64,000 bases of DNA, taken from Synechococcus sp. BIOS-E4-1. Its GTDB lineage: Bacteria > Cyanobacteriota > Cyanobacteriia > PCC-6307 > Cyanobiaceae. Both the position numbers and the translations under genes were made by a program. The notes beneath the pieces were generated by a model. It was given only the letters and a program-made list of their open reading frames with translations. It did not search any database and was not told the DNA's origin. Where the stretch lies: NCBI RefSeq assembly GCF_014279995.1, contig NZ_CP047935.1, positions 779,243-843,242 of the forward strand. The letters run 5' to 3'. Shown here in pieces: positions 22,123 to 36,951 of the stretch (the first letter of the stretch is position 1; each line of letters starts with the position of its first letter).

Positions 22123-22198
22123 TATTGAAGGCTGATTGATGGTCTTTTTGGGGTGATTGAAGCAATAAAAAAACCCCTGCCGTTGCAGGGGCTTTGAT
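22123..22198. repeat. Duplicated 3' region, copy 1
   Basis: This segment is nearly identical to 22698-22773. Both begin TATTGAAGGCTGATTG and run through GGTCTTTTTGG and GTGATTGAAGCAATAAAA into a GC-rich hairpin. Each copy lies downstream of a Nif11-leader gene on the minus strand, so the repeat looks like part of a gene-plus-terminator duplication. Confidence 0.85.
22167..22191 (-). terminator. Rho-independent terminator after first Nif11 precursor
   Basis: On the minus strand the sequence reads CCCCTGC-AACG-GCAGGGG followed by seven T residues, a textbook intrinsic terminator. It lies about 140 bases downstream of the stop codon of the precursor at 22329-22592. Confidence 0.85.
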
Positions 22199-22328
22199 GA
22201 GTAGACTCAGAAATGAGTAGGCTGCATCAGGAGCGATCAGCAGTTTCAGGAGCGATAATCGTCGTAGGCTGCATTGAGCGTTCAATCAGTTGGGGTTAAG
22301 GCTCCACTACTTCGCCTCAGGCAAATCA

Positions 22329-22592
22329 TCAAAGGCAGTTGCCTTGGGTTGATCCCACCAGCCACGGGGGTTGTAAAGGCTCCACTTCGACCTCTCCACC
22401 AGCCACGCCTTCCAGTTCCTCATCTGAAAGTTCTGATTGAGCGTTCTTCAAGTCATCAGCAGAAATACTAAACCCTGCTTCTTTTGCAATCGCAGATACA
22501 GCATCAGCATCAGCAGCTGCTTTGAGCCTCTCCTGAAGGCTGGTGTCGACTTGGACCTTTTCTAGGAAGGCTTTGAGTTGCTCTTCTGACAT
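22329..22592 (-). CDS. Nif11-leader (prochlorosin-like) peptide precursor
   Basis: An 87-residue precursor. Residues 1-66 form a Nif11-type leader (MSEEQLKAFLEKV, ending EELEGVAGG) of the kind cleaved after the double glycine in prochlorosins. The 21-residue core, EVEVEPLQPPWLVGSTQGNC plus Leu, has one Ser, one Thr and one Cys, so a single lanthionine or methyllanthionine ring near the C-terminus is possible. No LanM synthetase is in this window, so modification would have to be in trans, as with ProcM. Its leader closely resembles that of the next gene, a tandem paralogue. The core's actual fate is inference. Confidence 0.85.
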   Translation of the reverse strand: MSEEQLKAFLEKVQVDTSLQERLKAAADADAVSAIAKEAGFSISADDLKNAQSELSDEELEGVAGGEVEVEPLQPPWLVGSTQGNCL

Positions 22593-22697
22593 GAGTGGCA
22601 GGTCTGTTCAGCAGTCATAGCAACGGTCTGCTGCAGTGTCTTTAGCTGATGCTTAAAGCGCTCAATCGTGTCAGCTATGGCGACGATAGTCGTCACC

Positions 22698-22773
22698 TAT
22701 TGAAGGCTGATTGTTGGTCTTTTTGGAGTGATTGAAGCAATAAAAAGCCCCTGCGTTTGCAGGGGCTTTGATT
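22698..22773. repeat. Duplicated 3' region, copy 2
   Basis: Second copy of the segment at 22123-22198, with a few substitutions (GATTGTTGG for GATTGATGG, GGAGTG for GGGGTG) and a slightly different hairpin loop. It directly follows the stop codon of the second Nif11 precursor. Confidence 0.85.
22744..22769 (-). terminator. Rho-independent terminator after second Nif11 precursor
   Basis: On the minus strand AAAGCCCCTGC-AAAC-GCAGGGGCTTT is followed by further T residues. It starts 11 bases after the precursor's stop. The A-rich flank makes it possibly bidirectional. Confidence 0.85.
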
Positions 22774-22779
22774 CATCCT

Positions 22780-23028
22780 TCAATACGACAGTGGCGACCA
22801 GTTCTTCTCTCTTCCAAATTCCTGCCCACAATTGGCGAGGCCGCCGCCAGCCACGCCTTCGAGTTCCTCTTCACTGAGTTCAGCGAACTTATCAGGAGTG
22901 AATTCGTGGCCGTGTTCTTTAGCGATGCTCACAACATCTTCAGGAGTCTTTGCTGCCTTTAGTTTGTCCTGAATGGACTGGTCAGCATTGGCCTTAGCGA
23001 TGAAGGCCTTGAGTTGCTCTTCTGACAA
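22780..23028 (-). CDS. Nif11-leader peptide precursor, TTG start
   Basis: An 82-residue precursor. The leader (residues 1-62, SEEQLKAFIAKAN to EELEGVAGG) is a clear Nif11 domain with a double-glycine cleavage site. The core GLANCGQEFGREKNWSPLSY has one Cys and two Ser, allowing at most one thioether ring with Cys on the N-terminal side. The codon at the conserved start is TTG where the paralogue has ATG, and no in-frame ATG lies upstream, so translation may be weaker. Leader similarity and a shared downstream repeat show recent duplication with its neighbour. Confidence 0.8.
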   Translation of the reverse strand: MSEEQLKAFIAKANADQSIQDKLKAAKTPEDVVSIAKEHGHEFTPDKFAELSEEELEGVAGGGLANCGQEFGREKNWSPLSY

Positions 23029-23302
23029 TAGGAATGATTCAGATGTCCCATTCTAGACAAGCTTCAGAGACTTGTCGTATTCAAGATCCACGTACAGTTC
23101 AGCATATAAATATAGACCTTATATGAGTCACCTATTGATGAGTCAACAATCAGCATTGGATCCTTTGATAATTGGAGTGTTAACGACAATTAGAGAAGGA
23201 TCCTGGAGCGTTAGGTATATCAGTATGGTAGGCCTTGAGATCCCAGTAAAAATAACCTCAGAGAGGGGTCTGAGGCGATTTAAACGGCCTATTTGAGAGT
23301 TT

Positions 23303-23503
23303 TCAGCGTAGGTTCAAGCACTCTGTACATCCTTTAAAATGGGATGATTTATTACTCCGATCAGCCAGTAGCTTCAGTGCTTCAAATTCAGGGATTCTCT
23401 CACCGATCAGGACCTTCTCTCGATCACGAATAGGGAAGCGAGGGGTGTTGTCGGCATATGTATTAAGACCACCTTTTCGTGGTCCACAAATATGGGAATA
23501 CAT
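23303..23503 (-). CDS. Possible small protein, unknown
   Basis: A 66-codon open frame with an ATG start. The middle section (RDREKVLIGERIPEFEALKLL) has protein-like amphipathic character, and two cysteines lie near the end (FKGCTECLN). No ribosome-binding site is evident and no family is recognised. It lies between the second Nif11 precursor and the small-gene cassette, on the same strand. It may be a gene remnant. Confidence 0.3.
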   Translation of the reverse strand: MYSHICGPRKGGLNTYADNTPRFPIRDREKVLIGERIPEFEALKLLADRSNKSSHFKGCTECLNLR

Positions 23504-23570
23504 TTAAATTAGACATTAGAATTATTTGCTTTTCAAGTGGTCCGTATTTATCAATCAGACTTGTCTGGAT

Positions 23571-24002
23571 CTAGATAATCCCAGCTTCCTCAAGAGCCTT
23601 GAGCTTCCTAAGTTTCTTCAGTAGTTCCAGATCGCCAGGATCTAATCCATTCATTTGGTCCTGAATTGTTTGATCTACTTGGTGAGGATTTTGGTCTGTC
23701 CACTGGCGAACTGCTTCATCCTTACCGTCTTCACTGAGTTGAGAAAAGGCTTTTTCCTTGGCCTGTTCAAGGCGTTCAGCATCCCAGCGTCTTTCCATTT
23801 CGGTTTTGTCTTGAAGTGTCCCGATAGGGTGCTTCTCACGTATGCCTTTGTGCTCCAGGTAACCCCTAGCTCTAAGTCCGTCATGGACAAGCATTGAGCT
23901 GACACGGGAGTAGGAGAGTCCTGTTTCTTCTGAGATCTGTTTCACCAGCTCCAGGACATCACCAGCAAGCAGTACTTGAACACGTTGCTTGGAGCTTGGC
24001 AC
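23571..24002 (-). CDS. Hypothetical protein with ribbon-helix-helix-like N-terminus
   Basis: About 143 residues from a GTG start, or up to 178 from an upstream ATG pair at 24107 that would overlap the preceding gene. The region QRVQVLLAGDVLELVKQ followed by SEETGLSYSRVSSMLVHDGL looks like an Arc/MetJ-type ribbon-helix-helix segment, as in plasmid or phage regulators. The rest is charged and helical (ELLKKLRKLKALEEAGII). DNA binding is inferred from pattern only. It is the last gene of the minus-strand small-gene cassette. Confidence 0.55.
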   Translation of the reverse strand: MPSSKQRVQVLLAGDVLELVKQISEETGLSYSRVSSMLVHDGLRARGYLEHKGIREKHPIGTLQDKTEMERRWDAERLEQAKEKAFSQLSEDGKDEAVRQWTDQNPHQVDQTIQDQMNGLDPGDLELLKKLRKLKALEEAGII

Positions 24003-24057
24003 TAGGAGTGACACAGAACTGCAACAAGTGTACCGGAGGCGCAGCCTTCGGCAACGC

Positions 24058-24204
24058 TTATTCAGGGTCAGGGGAAGGGCCTGGGAATAGGTTCCCGTCT
24101 TCATCAACTACTTCGACAATGTCAACACGCTTTAGGTATTGGGTTTGGTAGTTCTCTTCATCAACCTCATAAAGCTCTAATCGCTTGAGATACTGAGCAG
24201 CCAT
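24058..24204 (-). CDS. 48-residue acidic hypothetical protein
   Basis: The frame begins MAAQYLKRLELYEVDEEN and ends FPGPSPDPE. It is strongly acidic, with a short repeat of QYLKR (QYLKRLELYEV then QYLKRVDIVEV). Its ATG overlaps the stop of the upstream gene as TAATG, the same coupling seen at the previous junction, which supports it being real despite its size. The two QYLKR(L/V)-type units suggest internal duplication. Function is unknown. Confidence 0.55.
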   Translation of the reverse strand: MAAQYLKRLELYEVDEENYQTQYLKRVDIVEVVDEDGNLFPGPSPDPE

Positions 24205-24455
24205 TAGTTCACAGCAGTTGAATGGCTACGAATGGCAGAACCGTTGACACTCAAATTGATATTCAAATCAACTGCATTAGAAGCAAGGGAATGAGTATTG
24301 GCCTTGAGTGCTTCGAGGTCAGCAATTTGACCAGGGATCTCATCTAGTGCTGCTTGGATTGCAGCCATCTGTAGTTCGTATTGAGCCTTAGTAGTTTTCA
24401 GATCATTAATTTGATCTTCGATACCATCAAGGATTTGATCGTAGTTGTGAGACAT
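24204..24455 (-). CDS. Small coiled-coil hypothetical protein
   Basis: An 83-residue protein. Residues 1-52 form a heptad-like coiled coil (ILDGIEDQINDLKTTKAQYE) and the end is a Ser/Asn-rich beta-like tail (LNINLSVNGSAIRSHS). Its ATG overlaps the upstream stop (TAATG) and its own stop overlaps the next start in the same way. This resembles compact phage or conjugative-element modules, but no homologue is recognised. Confidence 0.55.
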   Translation of the reverse strand: MSHNYDQILDGIEDQINDLKTTKAQYELQMAAIQAALDEIPGQIADLEALKANTHSLASNAVDLNINLSVNGSAIRSHSTAVN

Positions 24456-24742
24456 TAGTAAGCTTTAATGAGGTTGTTTTTAGAGTTATCGATCTTGAGG
24501 AAAGCCATCCACTGTTGAATTGATCTGGCAGTGATATGTTTGACTTTGACTTCAGCTTGTCCAGTTAGATACTCAGGATAATTATCCTTGAGCAGATTGG
24601 CCATTTTGATTGATTCAGAGAGGTCTTGAAATAGAAACTCTCTAGCAATACCAGTTTCGCTTCTTAGTCCCTGAAGTGCATTGACAAATTTATCGTGGTA
24701 GGCATCGGCTTGAGACGTAATAAAGGATCGGTGTACGTTCAT
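24455..24742 (-). CDS. Hypothetical protein of the small-gene cassette
   Basis: About 95 residues from the ATG at 24742 (MNVHRSFITSQADAYHDKF); the frame remains open to a TTG at 24787. The sequence is mostly helical, with a possible DNA- or protein-binding C-terminus (ARSIQQWMAFLKIDNSKNN). No known domain is recognised. It is the first of three genes linked by TAATG overlaps. Confidence 0.5.
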   Translation of the reverse strand: MNVHRSFITSQADAYHDKFVNALQGLRSETGIAREFLFQDLSESIKMANLLKDNYPEYLTGQAEVKVKHITARSIQQWMAFLKIDNSKNNLIKAY

Positions 24743-25005
24743 TGATTTCGATATAAAAAATAGGCTGAGAAGGTATCGCACCTTCAAATAATAAGCTTGA
24801 GTCCACCCTTCTCTCGCTTGTTATTCCCAACTTCTGGTCAGCCTTTGAGTGAGACAGCATCGTTAGGTACTGCCTCTATTTGTTTTTACGTGCTGTTTTT
24901 CGACAGAATCAGCTCGACTGTTCACTATAAACAAATGATTCCCTTGATCAGTTCAAGCATTCCCACCAAAGGATGCTAAGAGGGAGGGTCCCCAAAAGGT
25001 TTTAA

Positions 25006-25197
25006 TTAATCAGAAGCGGGTGCAGGACTATCAGTGGCTTCTGCATCTGCTTCGGAAGTCTCATCTTTCAACAGTTGTTCCAGAGCGTGAATTGCCCCCT
25101 GTTGAACGAGTAGTTGTTTGCCAAGTTGTTCGTAGACCTCAGCATTCTTTTGAAATGAGGTCATAGCTTGGTCAAGTTTTTCTTGGATGTTATTCAT
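25006..25197 (-). CDS. Small helical hypothetical protein
   Basis: A 63-residue protein (MNNIQEKLDQAMTSFQKNAE) with a helical, Gln/Leu-rich body and an acidic Ala/Pro-rich tail. It starts 14 bases after the stop of the 58-residue gene upstream, so both are likely on one transcript. No family is recognised. A gap of about 260 bases separates it from the TAATG-linked genes downstream. Confidence 0.5.
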   Translation of the reverse strand: MNNIQEKLDQAMTSFQKNAEVYEQLGKQLLVQQGAIHALEQLLKDETSEADAEATDSPAPASD

Positions 25198-25211
25198 GGG
25201 TAGATAAGGTT

Positions 25212-25388
25212 TTAAAAGAAATTGGACTCTTCGCTGTCATCTCCATAGCCATTGTCATAGAGGAGTTGAGCGAAGTGACGCTCCTGACCATCAAGGCCAA
25301 ACTCATCAGGAGATTCCATGTGCTCTTCCCACATGACATCGTTGATTGAGTCTGCCTCTACACCTTCAACAAAGTGCTTGTACTTCAT
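25212..25388 (-). CDS. 58-residue acidic hypothetical protein
   Basis: The frame runs from ATG (MKYKHFVEGVEADSINDVMW) to TAA with an acidic C-terminus (YGDDSEESNFF). Codon composition and the close spacing to the next gene support expression. Its ATG lies two bases after a TAG that ends a further short open stretch upstream, hinting that another small gene, perhaps damaged, precedes it. No family is recognised. Confidence 0.5.
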   Translation of the reverse strand: MKYKHFVEGVEADSINDVMWEEHMESPDEFGLDGQERHFAQLLYDNGYGDDSEESNFF

Positions 25389-25577
25389 TGACTAGCGCTT
25401 TTGTTTGACAGACTGTTGAATCTTTATAGCCATATTATCTAAGCGGGTAGTTATACCTGTTGGAGTTGCTTGATGTTTTGCTTTAAGGTCGGGATTAACT
25501 TTGTTTCTGACGAGAAAAGTGTTGATTGGCTAAATGACATTGTAATGCTTTCAACGCTGTAGCCTGATCCTTTAAGG

Positions 25578-26948
25578 CTAACCAGAGGATCTGTTGCTAT
25601 ACGTGTGGCGGACTTTATTTAAACCTTGTTCAAGGTCTTCAATGAGATCTCTTTCTCCTTCAATCCCAATGGACAGACGAATCATTGAGGGAGTCACACC
25701 GGAATCCAATTGCTCTTTTTCACTTAATTGTGAATGTGTTGTCGAGGCTGGATGCAGAACCAGTGATTTCGAATCACCAATGTTTGCTGCATGCTTAAAG
25801 ATCAGTAAGCTATTCACAAGCATCGCTGCAGCGTCATAGCCATCCTTTAATTCAAATGTGATGATTGTTCCATATCCATTTGTCATTATCTGATTTGCTA
25901 TGGAATGATACTTATCATTTTCAAGCCCTGGATAACGAGTGTTTTGAGTAGATTCGTGATTGCATAGTACTTTTGCAATCGCTAGTGCATTATGGCAAGC
26001 TCGTTCCACGCGTAATCCGAGTGTCTCGATACCTTGAAGAATCAAGTAGCTATTGAAAGGTGAAATACATGGACCCCAGTCTCTTAGATGCTCAAGTCTT
26101 AGCCGCGTTGAAAAGGCAATATTTTTATAGAATGGTATTCGATTGCGTTGGCATCCAGGTCCGCCAAAACCGTATTCATCCCAGAAGCTGAGCCCCTTAT
26201 ACGCGCTATTCGCCTCCTTGAATTGGGGGAATGTTCCATTGCCCCATTCAAAATTACCGGAGTCCGTGATTATTCCTCCAACTGCATTGCCATGTCCACC
26301 AGCCCATTTTGTGAGACTCGAAATTACAATGTCAGCACCCATACGAATTGGCTTGATTAGATAGCCGCAGCATCCAAGCGTATTATCGATAACAAGAGGA
26401 AGTTTATTTGCATGAGCTACAGTTGCCAAGGCTTCAATATTCACCGGATTCAACTCAGGGTTGCCAAGTGATTCAGCATAGATCAACTTTGTTTTATTGT
26501 TTATCTTGGAGGCAACTTGGCTGGGATTATTTGGATCAGCAAAATCTACCTTGATCCCGAGTCTGGGAAGTTGTTCTTTAAACTGGTGGTAAGTGCCTCC
26601 ATACAAATAAGGCGAGCTGATGATGTGATCTCCAGCCTGCAGAAGCGTACTGATCACCAAAAATTGTGCTGCGTGGCCTGAAGCGCAGGCAATTGAAGAT
26701 ATTCCGCCCTCCAGGGCCGAGACCCTGCTTTCAAGAATTTCATTAGTAGGATTACTGATTCGTGTGTATATGTGCCCAAATAATTTACCTGTGTTTAGTG
26801 CCTCAGCTTCTTCGATGCTTGAGAATTCAAAGGCTGTATTTTGGTAGATAGGAGGCGAAAGACATTTTTGGTGCTGCCCTGGGATGTAACCCCAATGCAA
26901 GGCCTTAGTATTGAAATCAACCACAAAATTCATACTTTTTTTTAACAT
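25578..26948 (-). CDS. PLP-dependent O-acetylhomoserine sulfhydrylase-family enzyme
   Basis: A 456-residue Cys/Met-metabolism PLP enzyme. Motifs: SPPIYQNTAFEFSS, TRISNPTNEILESRVSALEG, Asp188 in VIDNTLGCC, the PLP lysine Lys214 in ISSLTKWAGGHG, and the C-terminal HPASTTHSQL and RLSIGIEGERDLIEDL. It is closest to the MetY/O-acetylhomoserine aminocarboxypropyltransferase group. It is AT-rich like the island around it and faces the oxygenase/ThDP operon divergently. That suggests a specialised role (gamma-substitution building a side chain) rather than housekeeping methionine synthesis; the specialised role is inference. Confidence 0.85.
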   Translation of the reverse strand: MLKKSMNFVVDFNTKALHWGYIPGQHQKCLSPPIYQNTAFEFSSIEEAEALNTGKLFGHIYTRISNPTNEILESRVSALEGGISSIACASGHAAQFLVISTLLQAGDHIISSPYLYGGTYHQFKEQLPRLGIKVDFADPNNPSQVASKINNKTKLIYAESLGNPELNPVNIEALATVAHANKLPLVIDNTLGCCGYLIKPIRMGADIVISSLTKWAGGHGNAVGGIITDSGNFEWGNGTFPQFKEANSAYKGLSFWDEYGFGGPGCQRNRIPFYKNIAFSTRLRLEHLRDWGPCISPFNSYLILQGIETLGLRVERACHNALAIAKVLCNHESTQNTRYPGLENDKYHSIANQIMTNGYGTIITFELKDGYDAAAMLVNSLLIFKHAANIGDSKSLVLHPASTTHSQLSEKEQLDSGVTPSMIRLSIGIEGERDLIEDLEQGLNKVRHTYSNRSSG

Positions 26949-27093
26949 AGCAATATCAATATGAATAACTCTTGTATGCCGTTAATCTTTATAATGTTTT
27001 AACTGCGCTCTGATATGCAAGCGAAATAATCGTGGTTTTATTGTAGAGGGCTAATTAAAGTAGAGATCTACGGCTTTTCTGATGACTGGCTAG

Positions 27094-27648
27094 ATGAGAC
27101 TGTTGTTTCCTAGTGCGTGTTATAGCTCAATTGGCACCTATGATGGTAACATTCAGGATTTGGTGCCTGAACAACAAATTAACGATGCCAGCCAATGGTT
27201 TAATCACTTTGATTTCAAGGTTATGTTGCTTAATAACTCGTTGATCGACCGCGTTCCTGTTTTTAAAAAGGTCAATAGAGTCATAAAAATCGATCGAATT
27301 GCTGTTGTTTCTATGCCACCAATGACAACATACAATTGGCATGTTGATGAGCACCGTCTTGCAACGGTTAATATGTTATTAAATAACCACGCTGACAGCA
27401 CATGTTTATTTGGAAGACAAATTGATGGTTCTAAGCATTCAATTGTTGAATTATTTTATAAGCCAAACACGTTTTATCTCTTTAACACGTCAGTTGACCA
27501 CATGGTCATCAATAGAGGGGCTGAGCGTTATATGCTTAGTTTGCAATTTAAGAAACAGGAAAAATACGAAGATCTGTATAAGGCATTGATGATGAATGCT
27601 GATCAAGTTGATTCCACTCCTCAACTTAAAACTGAAAAACGATTATGA
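27094..27648 (+). CDS. 2OG-Fe(II) oxygenase-like protein
   Basis: A 184-residue protein with the facial-triad pattern of non-heme Fe(II)/2-oxoglutarate oxygenases: His83-x-Asp85 in NWHVDEHRLATVNMLL, distal His136 in SVDHMVINRG, and Arg145 placed to bind 2-oxoglutarate. The surrounding strands fit a cupin-type double-stranded helix. The substrate is unknown. It opens a four-gene operon in which every junction overlaps (ATGA, ATGA, TAATG) and is divergent from the PLP enzyme. I infer a tailoring hydroxylase for the product of this locus. Confidence 0.7.
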   Translation: MRLLFPSACYSSIGTYDGNIQDLVPEQQINDASQWFNHFDFKVMLLNNSLIDRVPVFKKVNRVIKIDRIAVVSMPPMTTYNWHVDEHRLATVNMLLNNHADSTCLFGRQIDGSKHSIVELFYKPNTFYLFNTSVDHMVINRGAERYMLSLQFKKQEKYEDLYKALMMNADQVDSTPQLKTEKRL

Positions 27649-28295
27649 TTCGGTCTAACAATACTGTTTCATTAGGCAGTGGGTGGGTTGATCCCTCTTC
27701 ATGGGATTTTGTTGATGAAGTTCAAAGCCAGTTGTCTATAGTTCGAAACGAATTATGGGCAATGACACAGTCTCATCAAATGACAGCACAAACACTTGGT
27801 TTCGGTCCTAGAAACTGGATTTCAAAAGAACTTAATTTACCTGAAATTTCTAATTGCGTTGAGAATTGGATTCGTGATGGTGGTTTCCATAGTGAACAAA
27901 TAGGATACGATTCTCGAAAATCTGGAGAGTGGCAGACTCTTCCGCTGTTTAAGTCAGATTTACCTCAAACAGAAGCTCTCGCTTCTCGCTATTTACCAAA
28001 CACTCTACAAATGCTTAACCATATTCCTAACCTTCAATTTTCAGCAATTTTTAAACAGCCGCCTGACGCAGAGATTGCAGTTCATAAGCATTCACAAAAT
28101 CGTAGGATATTTCATTTCCTTTTGAATTCTCTGGATGGAGGCCAAGCCTGGATTGAGGTTGGCAATGAGCGGCGTCAACTGAGTCAGCAAGGTGATTGCC
28201 TCGCGTTCGATGTTCGTACTCCTCATGGTTCAGGAAATAATAGTACGACCGATAGAATTAATCTGGTGCTTGATATCGCGATGTCAATGGAGTGA
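27645..28295 (+). CDS. Aspartyl/asparaginyl beta-hydroxylase-like protein
   Basis: A 216-residue protein. The C-terminal half (from about residue 130) fits the Asp/Asn hydroxylase family. It has His147 in EIAVHKHSQNRRIFHFLL, a WIEVG strand, GDCLAFDVRTPHGSGN with distal His194, and Arg204 before the final strand INLVLDIAM. This family uses two His ligands and 2-oxoglutarate. The N-terminal part is not recognised. Start overlaps the previous stop by four bases (ATGA), as does its stop with the next gene. Substrate is unknown; hydroxylation of a peptide or amino acid is plausible. Confidence 0.7.
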   Translation: MIRSNNTVSLGSGWVDPSSWDFVDEVQSQLSIVRNELWAMTQSHQMTAQTLGFGPRNWISKELNLPEISNCVENWIRDGGFHSEQIGYDSRKSGEWQTLPLFKSDLPQTEALASRYLPNTLQMLNHIPNLQFSAIFKQPPDAEIAVHKHSQNRRIFHFLLNSLDGGQAWIEVGNERRQLSQQGDCLAFDVRTPHGSGNNSTTDRINLVLDIAMSME

Positions 28296-29947
28296 TGAGT
28301 TCGCTAAGTACAAGTGAGTTGCTCGCACGATGTATGTCGACGATCGGCTGTCGTCGCGTGTATACACTTCCCGCTGATTTGTCATTACCTCTACTTGGTG
28401 CCATTGAAGAATTAGGCATTGAAATTGTGAGCGTAGCTAATGAGGAGGGAATGGTCGTTGCTGCAGATATCGAAGCACACCTTACCGGGTTTTCTCTTTT
28501 AATTGCCACCGATGGATATTCAGTTTCAAAATTGATCAACGGTCTGATCGCAGCTCGTTTGCGTTATAGCCCGCTTCTTGTTGTTGTCATAAGCCAGGAT
28601 CTGGCTCTAGAAAACAGATCATTGTTGAATTGTCACCCACAACCTTCACGTTTGGGTGTCATGATGCATAGCATCGGCTTGGACTGTATCTCAGCACATC
28701 ATCTTTCAAGCGATCAATCATTTTTTCAAGCTTTTACGTCTCCTCAACGCTCTCAACAACCCGTTGTCCTTAACTTTACAAGAAGTGACCTGCTCAATTT
28801 CCGCTGGGATGCAGAAACAGCGCTTGGAGAAATTGTTCCGTTATCTGCTTCTTCAGCTGCTGAATCTGCTAATCAGAAACTTGATGAACTTTTAATTAAT
28901 TGCTCAGATTTGATCCTGATCTTCGGAAATGGGATTAATCGGCATCGATCACGTTTAAGAGGCCATACTCTGAAAGACTCGATTGAACAAAATTATCTTT
29001 TACTTCCTAGCGCTAAAGGTTGTCTTGATGAGGACGACCCTCGATGTATTGGCGTTTTTCAAGGTGATTATAGTAATAATGATATTTTGTCAGTATTTTA
29101 TAGTACTTCAACCTTTTTGTTGGTTGAGGTTGAAGACCATGAGTTTCCGGCCTCATTTTGGCAACCATATGCCAAATCGATCTATCGTGGACTCCGAGAT
29201 GAGTTAATCCAAAAGCAAAAAAAAGTTGTTCTAATAAGTGAATCCGGGGGGCTTGTATTGGAGAAAGAGACTTTGCGTCCAGTAGATTGGCTATCCAAAC
29301 TATTTCAACGTTCTACGATCGATAAGCTTGAAAAAATACCTGTATTATCTTTAAATAGTAATTGTCCCAATGATTCTAACCGATATGACCAGCTTGTTAA
29401 TCTTTTGAATCGCCAAAAAAAACCAATGGTGTTGGTCGCTGATGTTGGTATTGGTTGCCTCCCTTTGTTTAATTGGATCGCAAGAGGCGAAGATATTTTT
29501 CTCTCCAATCATGTATGGGCCAATATGGGATTTTCCTTCTCAGCGGGACTTGCAGCAGCAAAAATATTTCCAAAGCAGGATCTTTGGATCGTCTGCGGTG
29601 ATGGTTCAGCGGTTATGGCTATGCAAGATATGCTTATGTTTGTTCGCGAATCAATACCAGTTAAGATTATTATTCTAGATAATCACGGATATTTAACAGA
29701 GAACTTAAAGACTACTGGTAGCTTCAATCGCGGCTTTGATATCGATTGGTGCTTGTATGCAAAGTCGATTGGTTTTGGCTACACAGCGACAGTCAAAATC
29801 GCAGAATCATTGAACAATGTGTTTCAACATTTTGCTGAGACGGACACCTCTCAGGCTCTTCTATCGATTGAAATTTCCCCTCAATCTGTCCCACAACAAC
29901 TCAAAAATTTGATGACTTGGGACACATTGCGACGGGCTTCCTTGTAA
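28292..29947 (+). CDS. Thiamine diphosphate-dependent enzyme (acetolactate synthase/decarboxylase-like)
   Basis: A 551-residue ThDP enzyme of the IlvB-like superfamily. The N-terminal PYR domain carries the activating Glu (VANEEGMVVAADIEA, about residue 51). A degenerate middle domain follows. The C-terminal PP domain has the ThDP/Mg motif CGDGSAVMAMQDM near residue 435, ending about 30 residues later in ILDNHGY. This fits 2-oxo acid decarboxylases, carboligases or sulfopyruvate-type enzymes; which one is not readable. It overlaps both neighbouring genes, which implies fixed stoichiometry with the two oxygenases and the amine oxidase. Confidence 0.8.
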   Translation: MMSSLSTSELLARCMSTIGCRRVYTLPADLSLPLLGAIEELGIEIVSVANEEGMVVAADIEAHLTGFSLLIATDGYSVSKLINGLIAARLRYSPLLVVVISQDLALENRSLLNCHPQPSRLGVMMHSIGLDCISAHHLSSDQSFFQAFTSPQRSQQPVVLNFTRSDLLNFRWDAETALGEIVPLSASSAAESANQKLDELLINCSDLILIFGNGINRHRSRLRGHTLKDSIEQNYLLLPSAKGCLDEDDPRCIGVFQGDYSNNDILSVFYSTSTFLLVEVEDHEFPASFWQPYAKSIYRGLRDELIQKQKKVVLISESGGLVLEKETLRPVDWLSKLFQRSTIDKLEKIPVLSLNSNCPNDSNRYDQLVNLLNRQKKPMVLVADVGIGCLPLFNWIARGEDIFLSNHVWANMGFSFSAGLAAAKIFPKQDLWIVCGDGSAVMAMQDMLMFVRESIPVKIIILDNHGYLTENLKTTGSFNRGFDIDWCLYAKSIGFGYTATVKIAESLNNVFQHFAETDTSQALLSIEISPQSVPQQLKNLMTWDTLRRASL

Positions 29948-31302
29948 TGGAACATGTCTTTGATATTTTAATTGTCGGAGGTGGTATATCCGGAACCTTA
30001 ATAGCAGAACAACTTATAACTAAATATCCTTGTAAATCACTCGCTTTATTAAATCGTGAACGTCAGTTAGGAGGTCGAATTCTTACCTATGAGAGCAAAT
30101 ATGGCTATCAATTAGAACTTGGTGCCATGCGTATTCCCGAAGCTAATCGTCTGACGCTGGCTTTATGTCATCGACTAGGACTTGAACTTGACCCTTTTAT
30201 CGGTGGTATCTCCCCCTGCAACACTTACTTGTTCAATCAATCTGCTCTGATTCATACAAACAAATTATATACAGATATTATTTCCCAATCGTTAACAAGG
30301 TTTTGCAGTACGGGAAATGACAATCTGACCTCGATTCAGGCTCTTTATCAAAAAATGTTCTCTAAGCTTTCGTCTTTGGGAGTCATTTTTTCAAAGCTTA
30401 GTTTTAAAGAATGGGTTGAAATCGTTATTGATTCACAAGATCAAGCTCTTTTTTGGGATTTGCTGGGATATGACTATCTCAAAATTCCTGATGTTAGTGC
30501 ATTGTCTTGTCTTCTCCATTCGTCGAATCATGATGAATACCACTCATCTTTTTATCATATTAAAGGTGGTATGCAGAGATTGGTCTCAACTCTGTTGACT
30601 AACTTTTTGGCGCGAGCAGGCAATCTGCTCAATTCTGATACAATTGAAAAGATTGAGTACTCTGATTCGACTTATGTGTTATCGACTAATCTTGGCCAGA
30701 CATATAAATCTAAAACCTTAATTCTCGCGATCCCCCCTGTTGCACTATTAGAAATTCATAAACGGAAGCCATTTCTTAACAGTAAACAATTAGTATGCAT
30801 TGAAGCTATTGGTCATTATAGTTCAGTCAAAACATATGCACTGCTTCCGTTTCTAGAAGGCCTTAATACCCAACAGACTTCCTCTGGTTTCTTTCGCACT
30901 AACCTCTCGATCAGGCAGGGTCATTGGCAGCCTTGTCAAAAGCCAGAAATTGATCGTTCATTGATGATTCTTGCTGAGTATCGTAATCAATCACTGAATC
31001 ATTCAAAGAACGCTGAATTGTCATCCGAGGTTGAATGGGCTCGAATATCTTCTGATCTCAACATGATGACCAAAAGTGTAATTCCTCAACCTCGGGAATT
31101 GGTTCGATATGACTGGGCCCAGCATCAATCTGGGATTGCAGCACATTACTGGCGTAAAGCGTACAATCCTAATAGTGTGCTTCAATCACTTAATCCGCCC
31201 AACACATCATGTTGGTTGGTTGGTGAAGCGTTTTCCTGCCAGCATGGATGGATAGAGGGGGCCATAGCTTCGGTTAATAATGTTGTTGAGTTGATCAACT
31301 AG
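29947..31302 (+). CDS. FAD-dependent amine oxidase-like flavoprotein
   Basis: A flavoprotein of about 451 residues. It has an N-terminal dinucleotide-binding motif (DILIVGGGISGTLIAEQL, then RERQLGGRILTYE), a substrate-domain middle part, and a C-terminal FAD segment (SCWLVGEAFSCQHGWIEGAI). This is the monoamine oxidase / phytoene desaturase-like fold. The start is the ATG overlapping the previous stop as TAATG; upstream in-frame sequence lacks family features. It closes the four-gene operon. It could oxidise an amine or amino acid produced upstream; that is inference. Confidence 0.8.
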   Translation: MEHVFDILIVGGGISGTLIAEQLITKYPCKSLALLNRERQLGGRILTYESKYGYQLELGAMRIPEANRLTLALCHRLGLELDPFIGGISPCNTYLFNQSALIHTNKLYTDIISQSLTRFCSTGNDNLTSIQALYQKMFSKLSSLGVIFSKLSFKEWVEIVIDSQDQALFWDLLGYDYLKIPDVSALSCLLHSSNHDEYHSSFYHIKGGMQRLVSTLLTNFLARAGNLLNSDTIEKIEYSDSTYVLSTNLGQTYKSKTLILAIPPVALLEIHKRKPFLNSKQLVCIEAIGHYSSVKTYALLPFLEGLNTQQTSSGFFRTNLSIRQGHWQPCQKPEIDRSLMILAEYRNQSLNHSKNAELSSEVEWARISSDLNMMTKSVIPQPRELVRYDWAQHQSGIAAHYWRKAYNPNSVLQSLNPPNTSCWLVGEAFSCQHGWIEGAIASVNNVVELIN

Positions 31303-31322
31303 AAGAATCTTTTTGGATATAA

Positions 31323-32066
31323 TTACCCTTGAAACTCCCTCCAATTGCTGGGATCTGAAGCAATATTCTCGTGAAGATTGTTTTTCAATCTTTTCGAGGC
31401 GGTTATGAAAATGTCATACGAGATTGAATATCGTGGATCCTTTGACTCGTATCTTGTTACCGCGTGAGTGAATGATGATGGGAAGATAAGAAGCAATTTT
31501 GTCTTCGGACGAATCCCAACTGTGAATAATTTTTTGGACTGTATTCCAGGGCTCATTGAAGGGAACCAATTACACTCGTTTGAAAATAATATATCTCCGC
31601 CTTTACATTCGTTTGGGCAGTGCACATAAAAAACTGCTGATAGATGGGCATTATTGTGTTTATGCGCCATAATCGAATGTCCATTTTCCATGACGACTGG
31701 CCAAGCCTTTTGGTACAATAATTTCAGGTCTGATCCACACAAAAAATAATCTTCAACATATTTTTTGATGTATTTTTCAACTGATCGATTCAGCCAGCTT
31801 AATTTTTTATTCTGAAACCAGTCTGAATTGTAATTTACATCACCTGTATATGCGCCAGACTGGTTTTGATTCTTCTGCTTACATTGATCATATAGCTCTA
31901 AAAAGCAATCCTGCAACTCTGTTAGTTGCTGCTGTTCAGGTGCCAACTGAATTTTCAAAATGGGTGGAGTTTTGAAGCACGTTTCAGCACAGATCTCTTG
32001 ATCTTCAAAACACTTAAGTTCTAGTCGCATCCGTTGAAGACTATTGCTGATTCGTATTCTAGGCAT
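31323..32066 (-). CDS. Putative 2OG-Fe(II) oxygenase (PF13759-like)
   Basis: A 247-residue protein. The N-terminal third is variable. The C-terminal part (about 120-222) matches the phage- and cyanobacteria-type putative 2OG oxygenases: AWPVVMENGHSIMAHKH with His135 and His137, LSAVFYVHCP, GGDILFSN, LLLIFPSSFTHAVT with distal His201, and RYSISYDIF with Arg212. It converges with the amine oxidase gene, with 20 bases between stops. A proline-rich Nif11 precursor lies 277 bases upstream on the same strand. It may hydroxylate that peptide, which is a testable inference only. Confidence 0.65.
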   Translation of the reverse strand: MPRIRISNSLQRMRLELKCFEDQEICAETCFKTPPILKIQLAPEQQQLTELQDCFLELYDQCKQKNQNQSGAYTGDVNYNSDWFQNKKLSWLNRSVEKYIKKYVEDYFLCGSDLKLLYQKAWPVVMENGHSIMAHKHNNAHLSAVFYVHCPNECKGGDILFSNECNWFPSMSPGIQSKKLFTVGIRPKTKLLLIFPSSFTHAVTRYESKDPRYSISYDIFITASKRLKNNLHENIASDPSNWREFQG

Positions 32067-32343
32067 GAACGCTTATCTTTTAAAATTATCTGTTGAACCG
32101 CGAGGTCTATTTTTTCACCTCTGCATGAGATCACCAGCACAGTCTTTTCTGTGGGCAAATATAGCGCCTTCAGAAAATTGTATCAAAAAAAAGCTCAATG
32201 CATGATTATACAATGGGCTCAATTCAATCAGATCTGGTTTTCCCAACTATCATAAATATGTGCACATTCTTAAAAACATGGATTGATTCACCATCAATTT
32301 CTGATCAAAGATGATTCTTTAATTTTCTTGATCTGACTATTAT

Positions 32344-32637
32344 TCATTCGGGTATAAAGGGTGGTTCCTGAACCGGTGATGTTGGCTGTGTCGGTGTTGA
32401 GTGGGGCGCTACAGGTGTATTCAAATTGAGTTTGCCTCCTGTGCAAGCCTGTAATTCTTCTTCTGTTAGCTCACTTAGATTGGCTTGGTAGGCGTCGAGG
32501 ATTTCCTGAGCACTCACTTGAAACCCTGCATCATTAGCGATTTTCTCAGCTACCGAAGGATCAGTGGCGTTCATTAAAGCCTGCTGCAGCTTTGTATCAT
32601 TCTGAAGTGAAGCAATAAGATCATTAATTGCAGGCAT
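32344..32637 (-). CDS. Nif11-leader precursor with proline-rich, Cys-free core
   Basis: A 97-residue protein. The leader (MPAINDLIASLQNDTKLQQA to LTEEELQACTGG) is a Nif11-type domain ending in a double glycine. The core of about 29 residues is rich in Pro, Ser and Thr (NTPVAPHSTPTQPTSPVQ) and has no cysteine, so lanthionine formation is excluded. The ATG start is well placed. The downstream gene on the same strand is a 2OG-oxygenase-like protein, making hydroxylation of Pro or another residue a plausible modification. It is unlike the MSEEQLKAF leaders at 22-23 kb and so is probably a different subfamily. Confidence 0.75.
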   Translation of the reverse strand: MPAINDLIASLQNDTKLQQALMNATDPSVAEKIANDAGFQVSAQEILDAYQANLSELTEEELQACTGGKLNLNTPVAPHSTPTQPTSPVQEPPFIPE

Positions 32638-32865
32638 GATTGAAAATTTATTATGTATTCTACATGTTCAAGTGTAAGAGTTGGGAAAATCTTGCATTTT
32701 TTTTATTTTCTTCGTCAACGGATCTTTTGCAACGGCCTTTCAGCAAATCATCTGCTTTTTAAGTCAATAACAATCTATTAGACAATTCAGTGATTTGATC
32801 TAAAATAAATTTATACATGTGTTCACCAGCAATAACGATTCGCTTCTGCCCTCACAAGATAGTCA

Positions 32866-33798
32866 ATGTTAGTTCTAAAGCCCGTTCATTCACTGCCTGA
32901 TACTGACTATTGTCAGATGATACCAGCTCCATTCCAGCATTCTTTGGCTGATGTTAAAGCTTTTGCCTGTCCGAAATCCTCAGATTATTTCTTTTTTATT
33001 ATCTTTTCCGGATTTCTGCCTTGTGGCTATATCGGTCATCGTGTTCTTTGCAATGGTGAAAATCATAAGATTGAAATTCAGCATCTTGCGACACTTCATC
33101 GCAGTCCCGATCAATCAATGATTCAAGATATTGCGAATATGCTTACGAACTTGCCATCCTTTTTTTCAGATTTACACTTCGACGCTATCAATTTGAATAT
33201 GTTCGAGCGTAATAATCTTTTTCCGGGAATTATTTTCCATTTAGAAGCAAACGGATGGGTCCCTGATTCGTCTTCGGTTTATTGTAGCTTTGATCCATTT
33301 TCATCCGTCCAGTATTGGTATTCACAGCTCTTGAGGATCGGACGTGTCTATCGTTATATGGTCGATCGTGAAGGTCTGAAATTTATCAACTTTGATCAAC
33401 TCACATCTCAACAGATTTTTTCTCTTCAGGAGACTACTTCACCATCCTGGGCAGCCCCTTTTCACCCATCCTTGTTATCCAGTCATCATTCAAGATATAG
33501 TGTTGCAGTTTTCAGAGGAGACACTGCAATCTCTTGGTTTGTTGCCGATACATTGAATTCCAAATCTTTGGCTATCGAAACTGTTTGGTTTGATCCTTCT
33601 GCTGTTTCTGTTGCTGTATCGTATGCAATGTTTTACAGGAGTTTTATACGTTTTTTTCCTTTTTTAGCCCCACCCGAGCAGTATGAATTTAAATTTTCTT
33701 ATCTTAATACCAATAAAACCATGCCCAAGTTGCATCAATGGCTTCGGCCAATGCTTCGCTTGGAAACGAGCTATCTGAGCTATTCACTTTCGTTATAA
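32866..33798 (+). CDS. Hypothetical protein, possible GNAT-type acyltransferase
   Basis: A 310-residue protein without a definite family. It has an N-terminal mixed region and a C-terminal half that alternates strands and helices in a way reminiscent of GNAT folds (RYSVAVFRGDTAISWFVADT, SVAVSYAMFYRSF, FKFSYLNTNKTMPKLHQW). The final segment resembles acceptor-strand and C-terminal GNAT elements. It is strongly AT-rich. It is divergent from the Nif11 gene and sits among oxygenases. I would call it unknown; acyltransferase is a weak suggestion. Confidence 0.55.
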   Translation: MLVLKPVHSLPDTDYCQMIPAPFQHSLADVKAFACPKSSDYFFFIIFSGFLPCGYIGHRVLCNGENHKIEIQHLATLHRSPDQSMIQDIANMLTNLPSFFSDLHFDAINLNMFERNNLFPGIIFHLEANGWVPDSSSVYCSFDPFSSVQYWYSQLLRIGRVYRYMVDREGLKFINFDQLTSQQIFSLQETTSPSWAAPFHPSLLSSHHSRYSVAVFRGDTAISWFVADTLNSKSLAIETVWFDPSAVSVAVSYAMFYRSFIRFFPFLAPPEQYEFKFSYLNTNKTMPKLHQWLRPMLRLETSYLSYSLSL

Positions 33799-33961
33799 GC
33801 GAATCGCATTAGCAATTTTTCGTTGATAGCGACTCACTTGCGCAGGAGCTCATTTCACGGCCTTTCTTTTTCTTTGACATCTTCTTCTTTGATCAGTATT
33901 TACATTGTCAGCTGATTCAACGCTACTTCAGTCTTTAGTGCAATCTCAGGCATTAGTTGCT

Positions 33962-34633
33962 TCAATCATAGCAATTCACAATATATCGAATAAATACACC
34001 TCTTTTATCTCCTTTGACTGGTATCCTTGCCTTGTGTGCACTGTAAGATGTGTGCCAAATTGCATGAATTGCGGAGTCTTCTAATTCATGCATGCGTTTG
34101 TGTTGTGCATTAAGAGAGAATAGCTTCCACTCCCATTTGCTTGCATCAAATATATGTCTGAGCTTAGTCCCTTGTTTTACACTATGGTAGCTCATGTGCC
34201 CTTCTCGATAGTTTATAGGGTTTAATTTAATATTGAGTGATAGCGTTCGATGGTTTTTGTGTTTTCTTTCATAGATATAATCTTGATGCGGTATGATTGA
34301 ACTTCCGCCTGGATTCCTGACAAAAATTTCTTGGTCTTTGCTTATACTTTTTGGTCTAAAGAGCTCCATTGCAATCTTTTCCATAGGTTCAGTCTCGACG
34401 AGTTGTTCTAATTCTGGGAACAGGCCTTGTATTTGCGTGCCATGATTGATTTTTTTTCCCGCTGGTGTGGACTCGAGATAAATATTTGGATATTTTTCAC
34501 GGAGAGCTAGCTGTTCGAAATCTTCAAATCTTCTCAGTGTTATTCGTCTAATGTCTTCAGGTACATGCAAAGTGGCTTCAGATGCTGAGTGTTGATGTAA
34601 TTTCTGAATGATTTTCGTCTCAAGCTCTTTCAT
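33962..34633 (-). CDS. Phytanoyl-CoA dioxygenase-like oxygenase
   Basis: A 223-residue protein with a PhyH-type pattern: His116-x-Asp118 in SSIIPHQDYIYE, the strand TLSLNIKLNPIN followed by EGHMSYHSVKQGT, and distal His194 or His200 with Arg in HTSYSAHKARIP and RGVFIRYIVN. Fe(II) and 2-oxoglutarate dependence is expected for the family. The substrate is unknown. Its start codon is the last of three ATGs created by a heptanucleotide repeat. It is divergent from the Nif11 precursor at 35 kb. Confidence 0.65.
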   Translation of the reverse strand: MKELETKIIQKLHQHSASEATLHVPEDIRRITLRRFEDFEQLALREKYPNIYLESTPAGKKINHGTQIQGLFPELEQLVETEPMEKIAMELFRPKSISKDQEIFVRNPGGSSIIPHQDYIYERKHKNHRTLSLNIKLNPINYREGHMSYHSVKQGTKLRHIFDASKWEWKLFSLNAQHKRMHELEDSAIHAIWHTSYSAHKARIPVKGDKRGVFIRYIVNCYD

Positions 34634-34651
34634 GGGTCATGGGTCATGGGT
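34631..34651. repeat. Heptanucleotide tandem repeat (CATGGGT x3) at a start codon
   Basis: Three perfect copies of CATGGGT abut the start of the PhyH-like gene. On the coding strand this gives ATGACCC twice and then the ATG of the gene. The two upstream ATGs open short overlapping frames that stop within a few codons past the true start. Confidence 0.9.
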
Positions 34652-35002
34652 TTCTGATGCTTGAGACGTTCTATTTGTTTTCAACATCATTGGCATAGCC
34701 TGCAATTGGAAGGCGCAGTGCGTATGGCCCCTTCAGAATAATCGAGATTGAATGTTTTAACCATTTAATTTAAGAGTAAATTTTCAAGACCCGCTGTTAC
34801 TCGCTCTGAGATGTAATCTGAATTTGTCATAGTATTGAGATTCAATCATGAGTATCGGCCATGACAATTGCTTTCTCGATCGCTAATTTTACTACTTGAC
34901 TTTTAGGGGAAATGCTACATAGTACAGGCGTAATACTTATAGCTTCCTATGATTTTTGGTTTATTGCGTTGAATCGTTTAATCTCAAGTTTTTTTGAATA
35001 CT
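34652..35002. other. Divergent intergenic region between PhyH-like and Nif11 genes
   Basis: An AT-rich interval of about 350 bases with no gene. It must carry promoters for both flanking genes, but I cannot assign clear -35/-10 pairs. No terminator hairpin or riboswitch-like structure is evident. Confidence 0.5.
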
Positions 35003-35278
35003 ATGTCCAAGGCTGAAGATCTCTTGAATGCTATTGCGACTAATCCTGAACTAAGGGCTGCCATTACAACAACCACTACCGCCGAGGAGGCCGTAAAAAT
35101 CGCTGCAGACGCAGGCATAGAAAACAGTCAAGAAGATCTTGTAACAGCATTCAAATCAAGGATGACTGAGCTGTCTGAGGAAGAACTTCAAGCAGTAGCA
35201 GGAGGAAAGGGTGGTTCATGTGTGGTTAAGGCAGGCGGCAAAGATCTCACTGTAAATGTAACAGCTTTCTTGTTCTGA
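35003..35278 (+). CDS. Nif11-leader peptide precursor
   Basis: A 91-residue precursor from the ATG at 35003 (an in-frame TTG lies three codons earlier). The leader (MSKAEDLLNAIATNPELRAA to LSEEELQAVAGG) is a Nif11 domain with a double-glycine site. The core of about 23 residues begins KGGSCVVKAGGKDLTVNVTA and contains one Cys, one Ser and two Thr, plus an internal GG. A single thioether ring is possible. It is the only plus-strand Nif11 gene here. No dedicated modifying enzyme adjoins it except the divergent PhyH-like oxygenase. Confidence 0.8.
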   Translation: MSKAEDLLNAIATNPELRAAITTTTTAEEAVKIAADAGIENSQEDLVTAFKSRMTELSEEELQAVAGGKGGSCVVKAGGKDLTVNVTAFLF

Positions 35279-35500
35279 TCGAAATGATTTTCATTTAAAG
35301 TAGTTTTAAATCTTGACAGCTTGCTCGTATAGTTTGGCGTTGTACTCCAATATCTATTGTTCTGACTTTATTTTTAAACACTATAAGTATTGATCTTTTA
35401 AAGTAAGTTATGTCGTCTGTTTGAAGATTCGATTGCTGGGATTGGGTGGGAATGATTTAATTTGTGCTCTGAGGCAACGATGTCTAAGCATTGCCTACGC

Positions 35501-35740
35501 CTATGAATCAAGCCACGCCTGTGGATGGAATGTGTTTCTCTGCTTGTCACCCCCGGAAATGTGCTCAAGCTCCCCGCTATTGAGTTTATTGAGCTTGTAA
35601 GCAGTGCGCTTGTGGCCACTGTCTTTGGTGATCGATACCACTTCCTCAGGTGATTGGGCTGAATTGGGCTTCTCCTGAAGGGTTGTATTGCCCTTCGCCT
35701 TGGCGAGGAAAGCAGTCAGTTGTTCAATGAATATCAGATG
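35501..35740 (-). pseudogene. Decayed Nif11-leader precursor
   Basis: The translation (EQLTAFLAKAKGNTTLQEKP, then PEEVVSITKDSGHKRTAYKL, ending LEHISGG) aligns along its length with the intact leader at 22780-23028 (EQLKAFIAKAN, PEDVVSIAKEHGHE, LEGVAGG). The conserved MSE start has become IFI, so the start codon is lost, and a Leu-to-Pro change and other substitutions hit conserved positions. The frame remains open upstream to 35881, but that part is unrelated. The remaining core (DKQRNTFHPQAWLDS) has no Cys. Confidence 0.7.
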
Positions 35741-36701
35741 CTTGTCACTATGGAAACTCTGGTCATTGTCAGCGGTATTCTTATTCCAGGGCAGGGTGCT
35801 AAATATGGTCGCATGTCGACTGGAAAATCTTTGTTCAATTCCACTGCTGAAATCGTATTGCTTCGAATGTGAAGTGAACACAGATGCTAATCCTATGCCT
35901 TTTGAACTAATTGAATTGAACGGAGCGATGAATCATCGATTGCACGAATCCCTGGCCGATTTGCAGTTTCTGGTTCCCGCTGGAACAAGCTTTGATTCTT
36001 AAGGTTTCAATGTTCTTTGTCATGGCACACCCTCTACGGTCGTGTGTTGCTTGCCAGCTGTGAGCTTCGACATGTGTCGGCCCCTTTGTTATTGCACTGG
36101 CCACCACCGAACACGAGTGCTTTTGTGATGGGCTCTGCTTTGAGCTTTGCTTACTCCTGTAGTCAGAGAGTCATTCTTTCAAGTTTGATTCGCCGGTTTT
36201 TGCTTGATCCAGTTCTGAATCGCTGCAGCATGATTTTTTTTGCTTGAAATTCCCAAACAGCTGTCTGAAGTTCTTCAGATGTCTGCAGCGTCAGCGTTTT
36301 GAGCTGAAGTCTCCTTGACGAGATGGATTGCAACAAGCTCCTGATTTCTTCCGTTTGATCACCAAAGGTTGCCTTTGGTTTGGATGATGAAGGGCCCTCG
36401 CTTGTCGCTCCTTGCGGCAAGGTTCGATAAGGGTGGTTGATTCACTGTTTCCTTGGCCTTCACAGAGGCAATGTGGAATCAGTGGGCTTCAACGCTGCGT
36501 GTTTCAGCTTCCGTGTTGGAGTCTTTGCATCCACGGGTTTATTTGGTTGTCCTTCCATGTCGCGACCACGTCTTGTCCGGCTCAAGTTGGCTCTTTATTG
36601 CGTTGACGCCTCTGTTCAGCGAGCTTTGCCCTCCAGCATGGCCGCCGTTCAACCTTCTCCATCCGAACTATCTTGAGCTCAGAAGGCCTCACCCACTGCC
36701 C
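35741..36701. other. Gene-poor interval at the right end of the island
   Basis: About 950 bases with no convincing long gene. It holds only weak candidates: a 35-codon plus-strand frame (35895-36002) and an 85-codon minus-strand frame listed separately. Composition shifts from AT-rich towards that of the flanking chromosome across this stretch. No integrase gene, tRNA or direct repeat of the tRNA-Leu 3' end is apparent. Confidence 0.45.
36163..36420 (-). CDS. Possible small protein, unknown
   Basis: An 85-codon frame with a polar N-terminus and an amphipathic helical middle (TEEIRSLLQSISSRRLQLKT), ending in a basic tail. The helix pattern looks protein-like but no family or ribosome-binding site is evident. 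It lies in an otherwise empty interval on the minus strand. It may be chance or a remnant. Confidence 0.3.
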   Translation of the reverse strand: MPQGATSEGPSSSKPKATFGDQTEEIRSLLQSISSRRLQLKTLTLQTSEELQTAVWEFQAKKIMLQRFRTGSSKNRRIKLERMTL

Positions 36702-36950: not shown

Positions 36951-36951
36951 G

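Follow-up and report, generated by a model that had tools for sequence, protein, structure and literature searches.

A low-GC gene cluster at a variable tRNA-Leu site in Synechococcus sp. BIOS-E4-1: a possible pathway for a small amino-acid-derived metabolite

Organization of the locus

The genome of Synechococcus sp. BIOS-E4-1 is a single contig of 3.31 Mb, of which a stretch of 64,000 nt (NZ_CP047935.1, positions 779,243 to 843,242; "the window") was analyzed here. Ten open reading frames (ORFs), designated A to J, occupy a low-GC part of it (Table 1), and five of these, A to E, are considered below as a possible pathway for a small amino-acid-derived metabolite. All ten were found present and intact at the coordinates given in an earlier annotation made from the DNA letters (the original prediction). 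The arrangement it described also holds: A, on the minus strand, lies 145 bp from the first of four overlapping plus-strand genes, B to E, which extend from 27094 to 31302. The overlaps are ATGA between B and C (27645–27648), GTGA between C and D (28292–28295), and TAATG between D and E, with E starting at the ATG at 29947, whereas the ORF list has it begin at a TTG further upstream. Overlapping stop and start codons are the usual sign of translational coupling, which is predicted for all three junctions. Beyond E the strand switches repeatedly, from F and G (minus) to H (plus), I (minus), and J (plus), and these genes are outside the B–E operon. A promoter scan returned no promoter-like sites in the 145-bp region between A and B, and promoter and terminator scans gave no excess over shuffled sequences.

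Table 1. Positions of genes A to J and associated features in the window.
Feature	Position	Strand	Basis or remark
tRNA-Leu(CAG), at edge of insertion site	21009..21092	+	
Low-GC insertion holding the locus, from tRNA-Leu(CAG) to the small ORF-spoU-lpd block	21093..36665	.	
A: pyridoxal phosphate (PLP) enzyme of the O-acetylhomoserine sulfhydrylase family, a divergent core-metY paralogue	25578..26948	-	PF01053, TIGR01326, K214 kept
A-B divergent intergenic region, 145 bp, presumed promoters	26949..27093	.	
B: putative 2-oxoglutarate (2OG)-Fe(II) oxygenase, 184 aa	27094..27648	+	weak PHROG 274 and PADLOC 2OG matches, readable motif
C: aspartyl/asparaginyl beta-hydroxylase-like oxygenase, 216 aa	27645..28295	+	PF05118
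D: thiamine diphosphate (ThDP) enzyme, 2-oxo-acid decarboxylase-like, 551 residues	28292..29947	+	PF02775, PF02776, catalytic residues
E: flavin adenine dinucleotide (FAD) enzyme, L-amino-acid-oxidase-like	29947..31302	+	PF01593; GGGISG, GAMRIP, HGWIEGA blocks
F: TIGR02466-type 2OG-Fe(II) oxygenase	31323..32066	-	PF13759, TIGR02466; cyanobacteria often have this family; link to A-E doubtful
G: Nif11-leader peptide, Cys-less core after GG	32344..32637	-	PF07862, TIGR03798; association doubtful
H: 310-aa protein, no family match in four libraries	32866..33798	+	
I: possible 2OG-Fe(II) oxygenase, 223 aa	33962..34633	-	PF13640 under cut-off, motif by eye
J: Nif11-leader peptide, one Cys in core	34994..35278	+	PF07862, TIGR03798; association doubtful

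Predicted functions of A to E

In Pfam profile searches A matches PF01053 (8.6e-115), and its TIGR01326 score of 531.9 bits, against a curated cut-off of 495.1, places it in the O-acetylhomoserine (OAH) sulfhydrylase subfamily. Its best solved relatives are an OAH/O-acetylserine (OAS) sulfhydrylase (4e-119), then FUB7 (PDB 8eqw, 4e-114). Residues K214, Y116, D188, and N163 are the same in all 112 relatives aligned and R424 in 111 of them; we take K214 to be the PLP lysine and the other four to be catalytic residues. Elsewhere the sequence is unusual, with 26 of 138 near-invariant columns altered. In residues 24–60, where 17 of the near-invariant columns fall, ten are changed (hypergeometric P 9e-5, for a stretch picked after the changes had been seen). 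Among the other rows of the alignment the highest counts of changed columns are 24, in a fragment at a contig edge (L107), and then 16. In a quick tree of A and these relatives (112 of 116 loci, after a filter on length and motifs had removed four), A forms a lone branch of length 2.92, the median being 0.22; the position of such long rows is unsure.

The tree does not group A with the metY genes of its own lineage: contigs titled Synechococcus, Synechococcaceae, and Prochlorococcus fall with the core metY of this genome. The latter, at C1:1517177-1518475, is 50% identical to A and overlaps a gene for a homoserine O-acyltransferase, a possible source of O-acetylhomoserine. The existence of this core metY elsewhere in the genome, together with the separate long branch, rules out A as the housekeeping MetY. 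Judging from its sequence, A is a divergent paralogue within the OAH sulfhydrylase family. Matches to A at 1e-100 occur in 77 of 292 genomes sampled across the phylum; apart from A itself they are 41–51% identical and number one per genome, this genome having both A and metY. An alignment-based scan of genome contigs gave identities of at most 52% among the best 80 of at least 592 relatives.

For D, which has both N- and C-terminal ThDP domains (PF02776 and PF02775), the closest solved relatives are yeast pyruvate decarboxylase (1.5e-18), then a branched-chain 2-oxo-acid decarboxylase. The alignment with the yeast enzyme spans residues 3–472 of 551. The five catalytic residues of that enzyme include a His-His motif, H114-H115. 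Four of the five have counterparts in D: its residues D29, E51, H115, and E470 correspond in the alignment to D28, E51, H115, and E477 of yeast. The catalytic Glu (E51), the GDGS sequence at 436–439, and the active-site residues D29 and E470 are thus as in a ThDP decarboxylase, in a protein just 18–22% identical to six aligned ThDP relatives. D is probably an active enzyme whose pocket is altered, and decarboxylation appears the likelier, though not the sole possible, reaction.

E matches PF01593 (1.7e-21), and its best solved relatives are L-amino acid oxidases, with monoamine oxidases weaker in the same list. Aligned with the solved oxidases, it has the blocks GGGISG, GAMRIP (59–64), and HGWIEGA (433–439), and ELGAMRIP and HGWIE are common to them. 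The GxGxxG, GAMRxP, and HGW blocks have recognized roles in these enzymes; the Arg of the GAMR block binds the substrate carboxylate. Identity to relatives is about 23–24% over the full length, rising to about 40% over short N-terminal stretches. VioA, the best NCBIfam match, was rejected as an assignment (54 bits against a cut-off of 600). From these blocks, L-amino acid oxidase is the most likely identity of E.

The original prediction counted four oxygenase-like proteins, B, C, F, and I, and this is firm for two of them. C is above the cut-off for PF05118 (1.1e-13) and F for both PF13759 and TIGR02466. The assignment is weak for the others. B has no match in Pfam or NCBIfam and resembles 2OG oxygenases through weak matches alone, to PHROG 274 (7e-5) and the PADLOC 2OG profile (1e-3), with a motif readable by eye as H83-x-D85, H136, R145; I reaches 16.4 bits for PF13640, under the 27-bit cut-off, and has an HQD...H...R pattern, also assigned by eye. 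Patterns of the form H-x-D/H...H...R can be read by eye in all four.

The insertion site

The interval following tRNA-Leu(CAG) is a variable insertion site, or hotspot. The GC content is 57–64% in the flanks, 38–51% between 21 and 37 kb, and 38–44% over A to J. The block murA, tRNA-Leu(CAG), small ORF, spoU, lpd is kept in all 20 same-genus regions compared, with a gap between murA and the small ORF of 0.2–8.5 kb there versus 15.8 kb here (20864–36666). None of the 20 has a match to any of A to J at this site (1e-5), which is nearly empty or holds other genes. Six same-genus relatives (L033–L038) are 96–98% identical to BIOS-E4-1 in murA and 97–99% in lpd; in L033 the genes at the site look polysaccharide- or glycan-related by eye. 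A search of 20850–37000 revealed no direct repeat of the tRNA end. When A to J were scanned, the PHROG matches were weak or generic, and a phage origin was set aside; a defense system was likewise set aside, the PADLOC matches being only generic ones, of oxygenase and desaturase type. Between A and a pair of Nif11 genes described below are small minus-strand ORFs (178, 83, 110, and 63 aa; 23571–25197) with no NCBIfam match at 1e-5.

Search for related genes elsewhere

The samples searched include each species once, and records of this genome or nearly identical ones may be missing from the contig, plasmid, and phage sets. No orthologues of B, C, D, E, H, or I were found in them. For E, the only match among 386 genomes of the phylum at 1e-12 was this genome itself. 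A search at 1e-10 of 398 genomes from the phylum of G486, to which a contig titled Gammaproteobacteria belongs, gave none, without a positive control there. B was likewise found only in its own genome (one of 99 at 1e-3). D gave matches in 135 of 149 relatives at 1e-3; among the matches listed, those other than D itself are generic ThDP enzymes at 20–34% identity. The B and D searches took in 30 same-genus genomes, several of them incomplete. A joined search with B, C, and E gave matches in three of 365 genomes in the phylum of a Neolewinella contig (G490), again without a positive control; these are weak, fall in the E part, and are 24–39% identical.

Single-protein scans found no relative of A in viral and genome contigs, nor of C, D, E, or H in viral contigs. 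Such scans need exact 8-residue matches and rule out close copies only; the scan with A missed ordinary sulfhydrylases that the alignment scan later recovered. Plasmids gave no match for D (1e-10), C (1e-3), or B (0.01). They gave 25 records for E and, at 1e-60, 203 for A, all below 60% identity, the full-length ones for E being about 23% identical. Phages gave no match for B or C at 1e-3. The flanks of the best 80 A-like loci contained nothing matching B, C, or E at 0.01 and two weak matches to D, and in 12 genomes with A-like loci E had a single weak match (36% over residues 5–87).

Neighboring genes F to J

Nothing links F, H, I, and the Nif11 peptides to A to E, and they are best treated as separate neighbors. 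The family of F is scattered among relatives, so that F, which had been proposed as part of a shared gene set, probably lies outside the core set. In a search with C, F, H, and I joined, matches occurred in 91 of 246 relatives at 1e-6, and every match listed outside the BIOS-E4-1 genome was in the F part or its edges. At most three candidates were scored per genome in this search, and they did not include the genome's own C, which is therefore the least well covered of the four. H had been suggested to be an acyltransferase, an identity now dropped for want of support in four libraries: searches of Pfam, NCBIfam, PHROGs, and PADLOC gave no match, and a structure modeled from the single sequence was uninformative (mean pLDDT, the model's confidence score, 37).

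The two Nif11 precursors of the original prediction are well supported. G (PF07862 25.7 bits, TIGR03798 42.2 bits) and J (30.7 and 52.5 bits) are over the cut-offs, and both are Nif11-leader precursors with a GG site. The core of G has no Cys, which makes a lanthionine ring within G impossible; that of J has one. Nif11 genes are abundant in this genome, with at least 150 matches in 32 clusters among 281 candidate places. All 150 places that were scored matched, at 54 bits or more, above the 25.7 and 30.7 bits of G and J, and at least 12% of random 9.7-kb stretches hold one or more of these 150 matches. Three LanM-type genes (PF13575) are at C1:497960, C1:1540837, and C1:2204518, none of them in the window. 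One of the three has a shorter open frame, of 835 aa.

Other Nif11-like sequences are present in the same interval. Two host-type leader peptides are encoded at 22329–22592 and 22780–23028, each followed by a hairpin-like repeated stretch (22168–22198 and 22742–22772), and a Nif11 pair resembling this one occupies the same site in relative L035. The Nif11-like ORF at 35501–35881 may be degenerate: its core is short and lacks Cys, and it has a long extension at the N terminus.

Comparison with known systems

The nucleophile used by FUB7, of fusaric acid biosynthesis, is reportedly an aldehyde. A belongs to the same OAH sulfhydrylase family as FUB7. Unlike the fusaric acid system, A to J include no polyketide synthase (PKS), and here an aldehyde would have to come from the L-amino acid oxidase and ThDP decarboxylase. 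FUB7 is one of several gamma-substitution enzymes, with CndF, AnkD, Mur24, and putatively LolC, that add diverse nucleophiles to a vinylglycine ketimine, according to an excerpt of PMC10367076. An excerpt of PMC8086630 has FUB7 formally making O-acyl-homoserines and, with sulfide, homocysteine.

Housekeeping MetY resembles A in passing TIGR01326 and in the PLP residues that A keeps, and differs in that A is in an accessory island and has the identity, branch length, and altered columns given above. E shares its three conserved blocks with L-amino acid oxidases and VioA, from which its low full-length identity sets it apart. D resembles the pyruvate, indolepyruvate, and branched-chain 2-oxo-acid decarboxylases in its alignment and four catalytic residues, and departs from them in its low identity and in having Cys where the HH motif has its first His. 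Nif11/prochlorosin loci of marine Synechococcus have been surveyed (PMC10783134, excerpt), and these are in the same kind of host, with Nif11-leader genes as in the interval studied here; in contrast, the window has no LanM and the core of G no Cys. The neighbors named in that excerpt are LanM, YcaO, dehydrogenase, methyltransferase, oxidoreductase, and transport genes, and the A–E set is not among them.

The original prediction knew of no described pathway with this gene set. None is recognizable in the open-licence PubMed Central (PMC) literature either, where titles and abstract openings on gamma-substitution or O-acetylhomoserine together with oxidase, ThDP, or 2-oxoglutarate enzymes contained no such set. 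What is new is the gene combination and the divergence of A; no new enzyme class is involved.

A possible pathway and its alternatives

From the observed gene structure, families, kept catalytic residues, and island context, we infer the following substrates, reaction order, and product, and the cooperation of A with B to E. E would oxidize an L-amino acid to the imino or 2-oxo acid, releasing H2O2. D would convert the 2-oxo acid to an aldehyde by decarboxylation, or transfer an acyl-anion equivalent. A would couple the product of D to the four-carbon unit of O-acetylhomoserine in a FUB7-like reaction, and B and C would hydroxylate the intermediate or the product. A small-molecule role for A to E is suggested by the L-amino acid oxidase motifs of E, the decarboxylase residues of D, the divergent gamma-substitution enzyme A, and the coupled operon. 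Our tentative preference, held at well under even confidence, is that A to E are a pathway for a small amino-acid-derived metabolite, acting in the order E-D-A-B/C and acquired horizontally on foreign-looking, low-GC DNA. The broader claim, that either A to E or B to E make a small amino-acid-derived molecule, can be made with more confidence. Such a product was one of two proposed originally, and the original interpretation is supported in part: the families of A to E and the coupled operon fit a small molecule, and the peptide alternative has little in its favor. A more specific version, a PKS-free bacterial route to substituted cyclic amino acids in which E and D supply a side-chain aldehyde, A as a divergent FUB7-like enzyme couples it to O-acetylhomoserine, and two 2OG oxygenases hydroxylate the ring or side chain, seems unlikely.

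Several observations weigh against the E-D-A-B/C pathway. No second genome with the A–E set was found among the samples searched, and no transporter, regulator, or carrier protein was recognized among A to J. Two motifs of A are MetY-type (SPFN, LGNP), unlike those of FUB7 (SPFS, MSNP). With these, its sequence gives no pointer to C–C over C–S bond formation, and the motif comparison does not support A as a C–C-forming gamma-substitution enzyme of the FUB7 type. As to its divergence, the 24–60 stretch was selected post hoc, and the changed columns of the L107 fragment are nearly as many as those of A. The best family for the homoserine O-acyltransferase next to metY is MetA_acetyl, at 230 bits against a cut-off of 460. 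In D the position of yeast H114 is C114, leaving only the second His of the motif. Its top NCBIfam scores are for pyruvate dehydrogenase and acetolactate synthase (73 bits each), followed by pyruvate oxidase (60) and indolepyruvate decarboxylase (53), none of them anywhere near its cut-off.

The MetY-type residues of A would also suit a pathway made of B to E alone, in which an L-amino acid oxidase, a ThDP decarboxylase or carboligase, and two hydroxylases lead to hydroxylated 2-oxo acids, acyloins, or aldehyde-derived acids, with A an accessory sulfur or amino-acid enzyme whose divergence is coincidental. B to E are coupled and A is on the opposite strand; however, A is likewise AT-rich and faces the operon across just 145 bp, and it is unusually divergent in a genome that already has a housekeeping MetY. 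We consider this alternative doubtful. D might instead be a ThDP carboligase of acyloin or acetohydroxy-acid type, joining two 2-oxo acids or an acyl anion and an acceptor, with A, B, and C acting on the product. The Cys in place of the first His and the two 73-bit scores are in keeping with such a role, but the best solved relatives are decarboxylases and D29, E51, H115, and E470 are kept, which makes a carboligase quite unlikely.

Unrelated passenger genes could also have accumulated by chance in an integration hotspot, with no common pathway. The size range of the site in the 20 relatives, the glycan-looking genes in one of them (by eye), the scattered family of F, and the two Nif11 genes at the same site in L035 are all consistent with this, but it would not explain the overlapping start and stop codons and single chemical logic of B to E, or the intact state of the ORFs, of which A, D, and E have retained their catalytic residues. 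A mere pile-up is thus improbable. The other proposal made originally, that the Nif11-leader peptides G and J are substrates of the oxygenases and oxidase and become hydroxylated or oxidized ribosomally synthesized and post-translationally modified peptides (RiPPs) rather than lanthipeptides, has fared poorly and we judge it improbable. In its favor are the presence of two Nif11 genes in the low-GC part, with no Cys in one core and one in the other; the interleaving of F, H, and I with G and J; the location of the three LanM-type genes elsewhere in the genome; and, from the excerpt of PMC10783134, a different Synechococcus strain in which a LanM gene has an NAD(P)/FAD oxidoreductase close by. 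Yet Nif11 genes are very common in this genome, G and J are transcribed apart from A to E, and A, D, and E are of small-molecule families. None of 24 F-like loci (3.1–3.8 kb) has a Nif11 gene beside it, by a home-made profile of 14 leaders, including G and J, that did recover Nif11 genes in both the window (five) and L035 (two); no recurrent pairing of a precursor with F was seen. Open-licence PMC titles and abstract openings on Nif11 with oxygenases or hydroxylases pointed to no such gene set; for Nif11 with 2-oxoglutarate hydroxylases the item obtained was a preprint on HEXXH enzymes. Peptide modification is possible mainly for F to J and is weakly supported, with nothing positive beyond proximity.

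Implications

The interval after tRNA-Leu(CAG) carries cargo that differs from strain to strain. The route to substituted cyclic amino acids, if true, would be a modular assembly line joining an amino acid and homoserine, so far in one marine cyanobacterium. If A to E are one pathway, a marine picocyanobacterium would offer a compact case of new amino-acid chemistry that lies outside the PKS, nonribosomal peptide synthetase (NRPS), and lanthipeptide routes usually mined. A would then be a further methionine-biosynthesis enzyme recruited to specialized metabolism, and the A–E set would be a new combination for genome mining.

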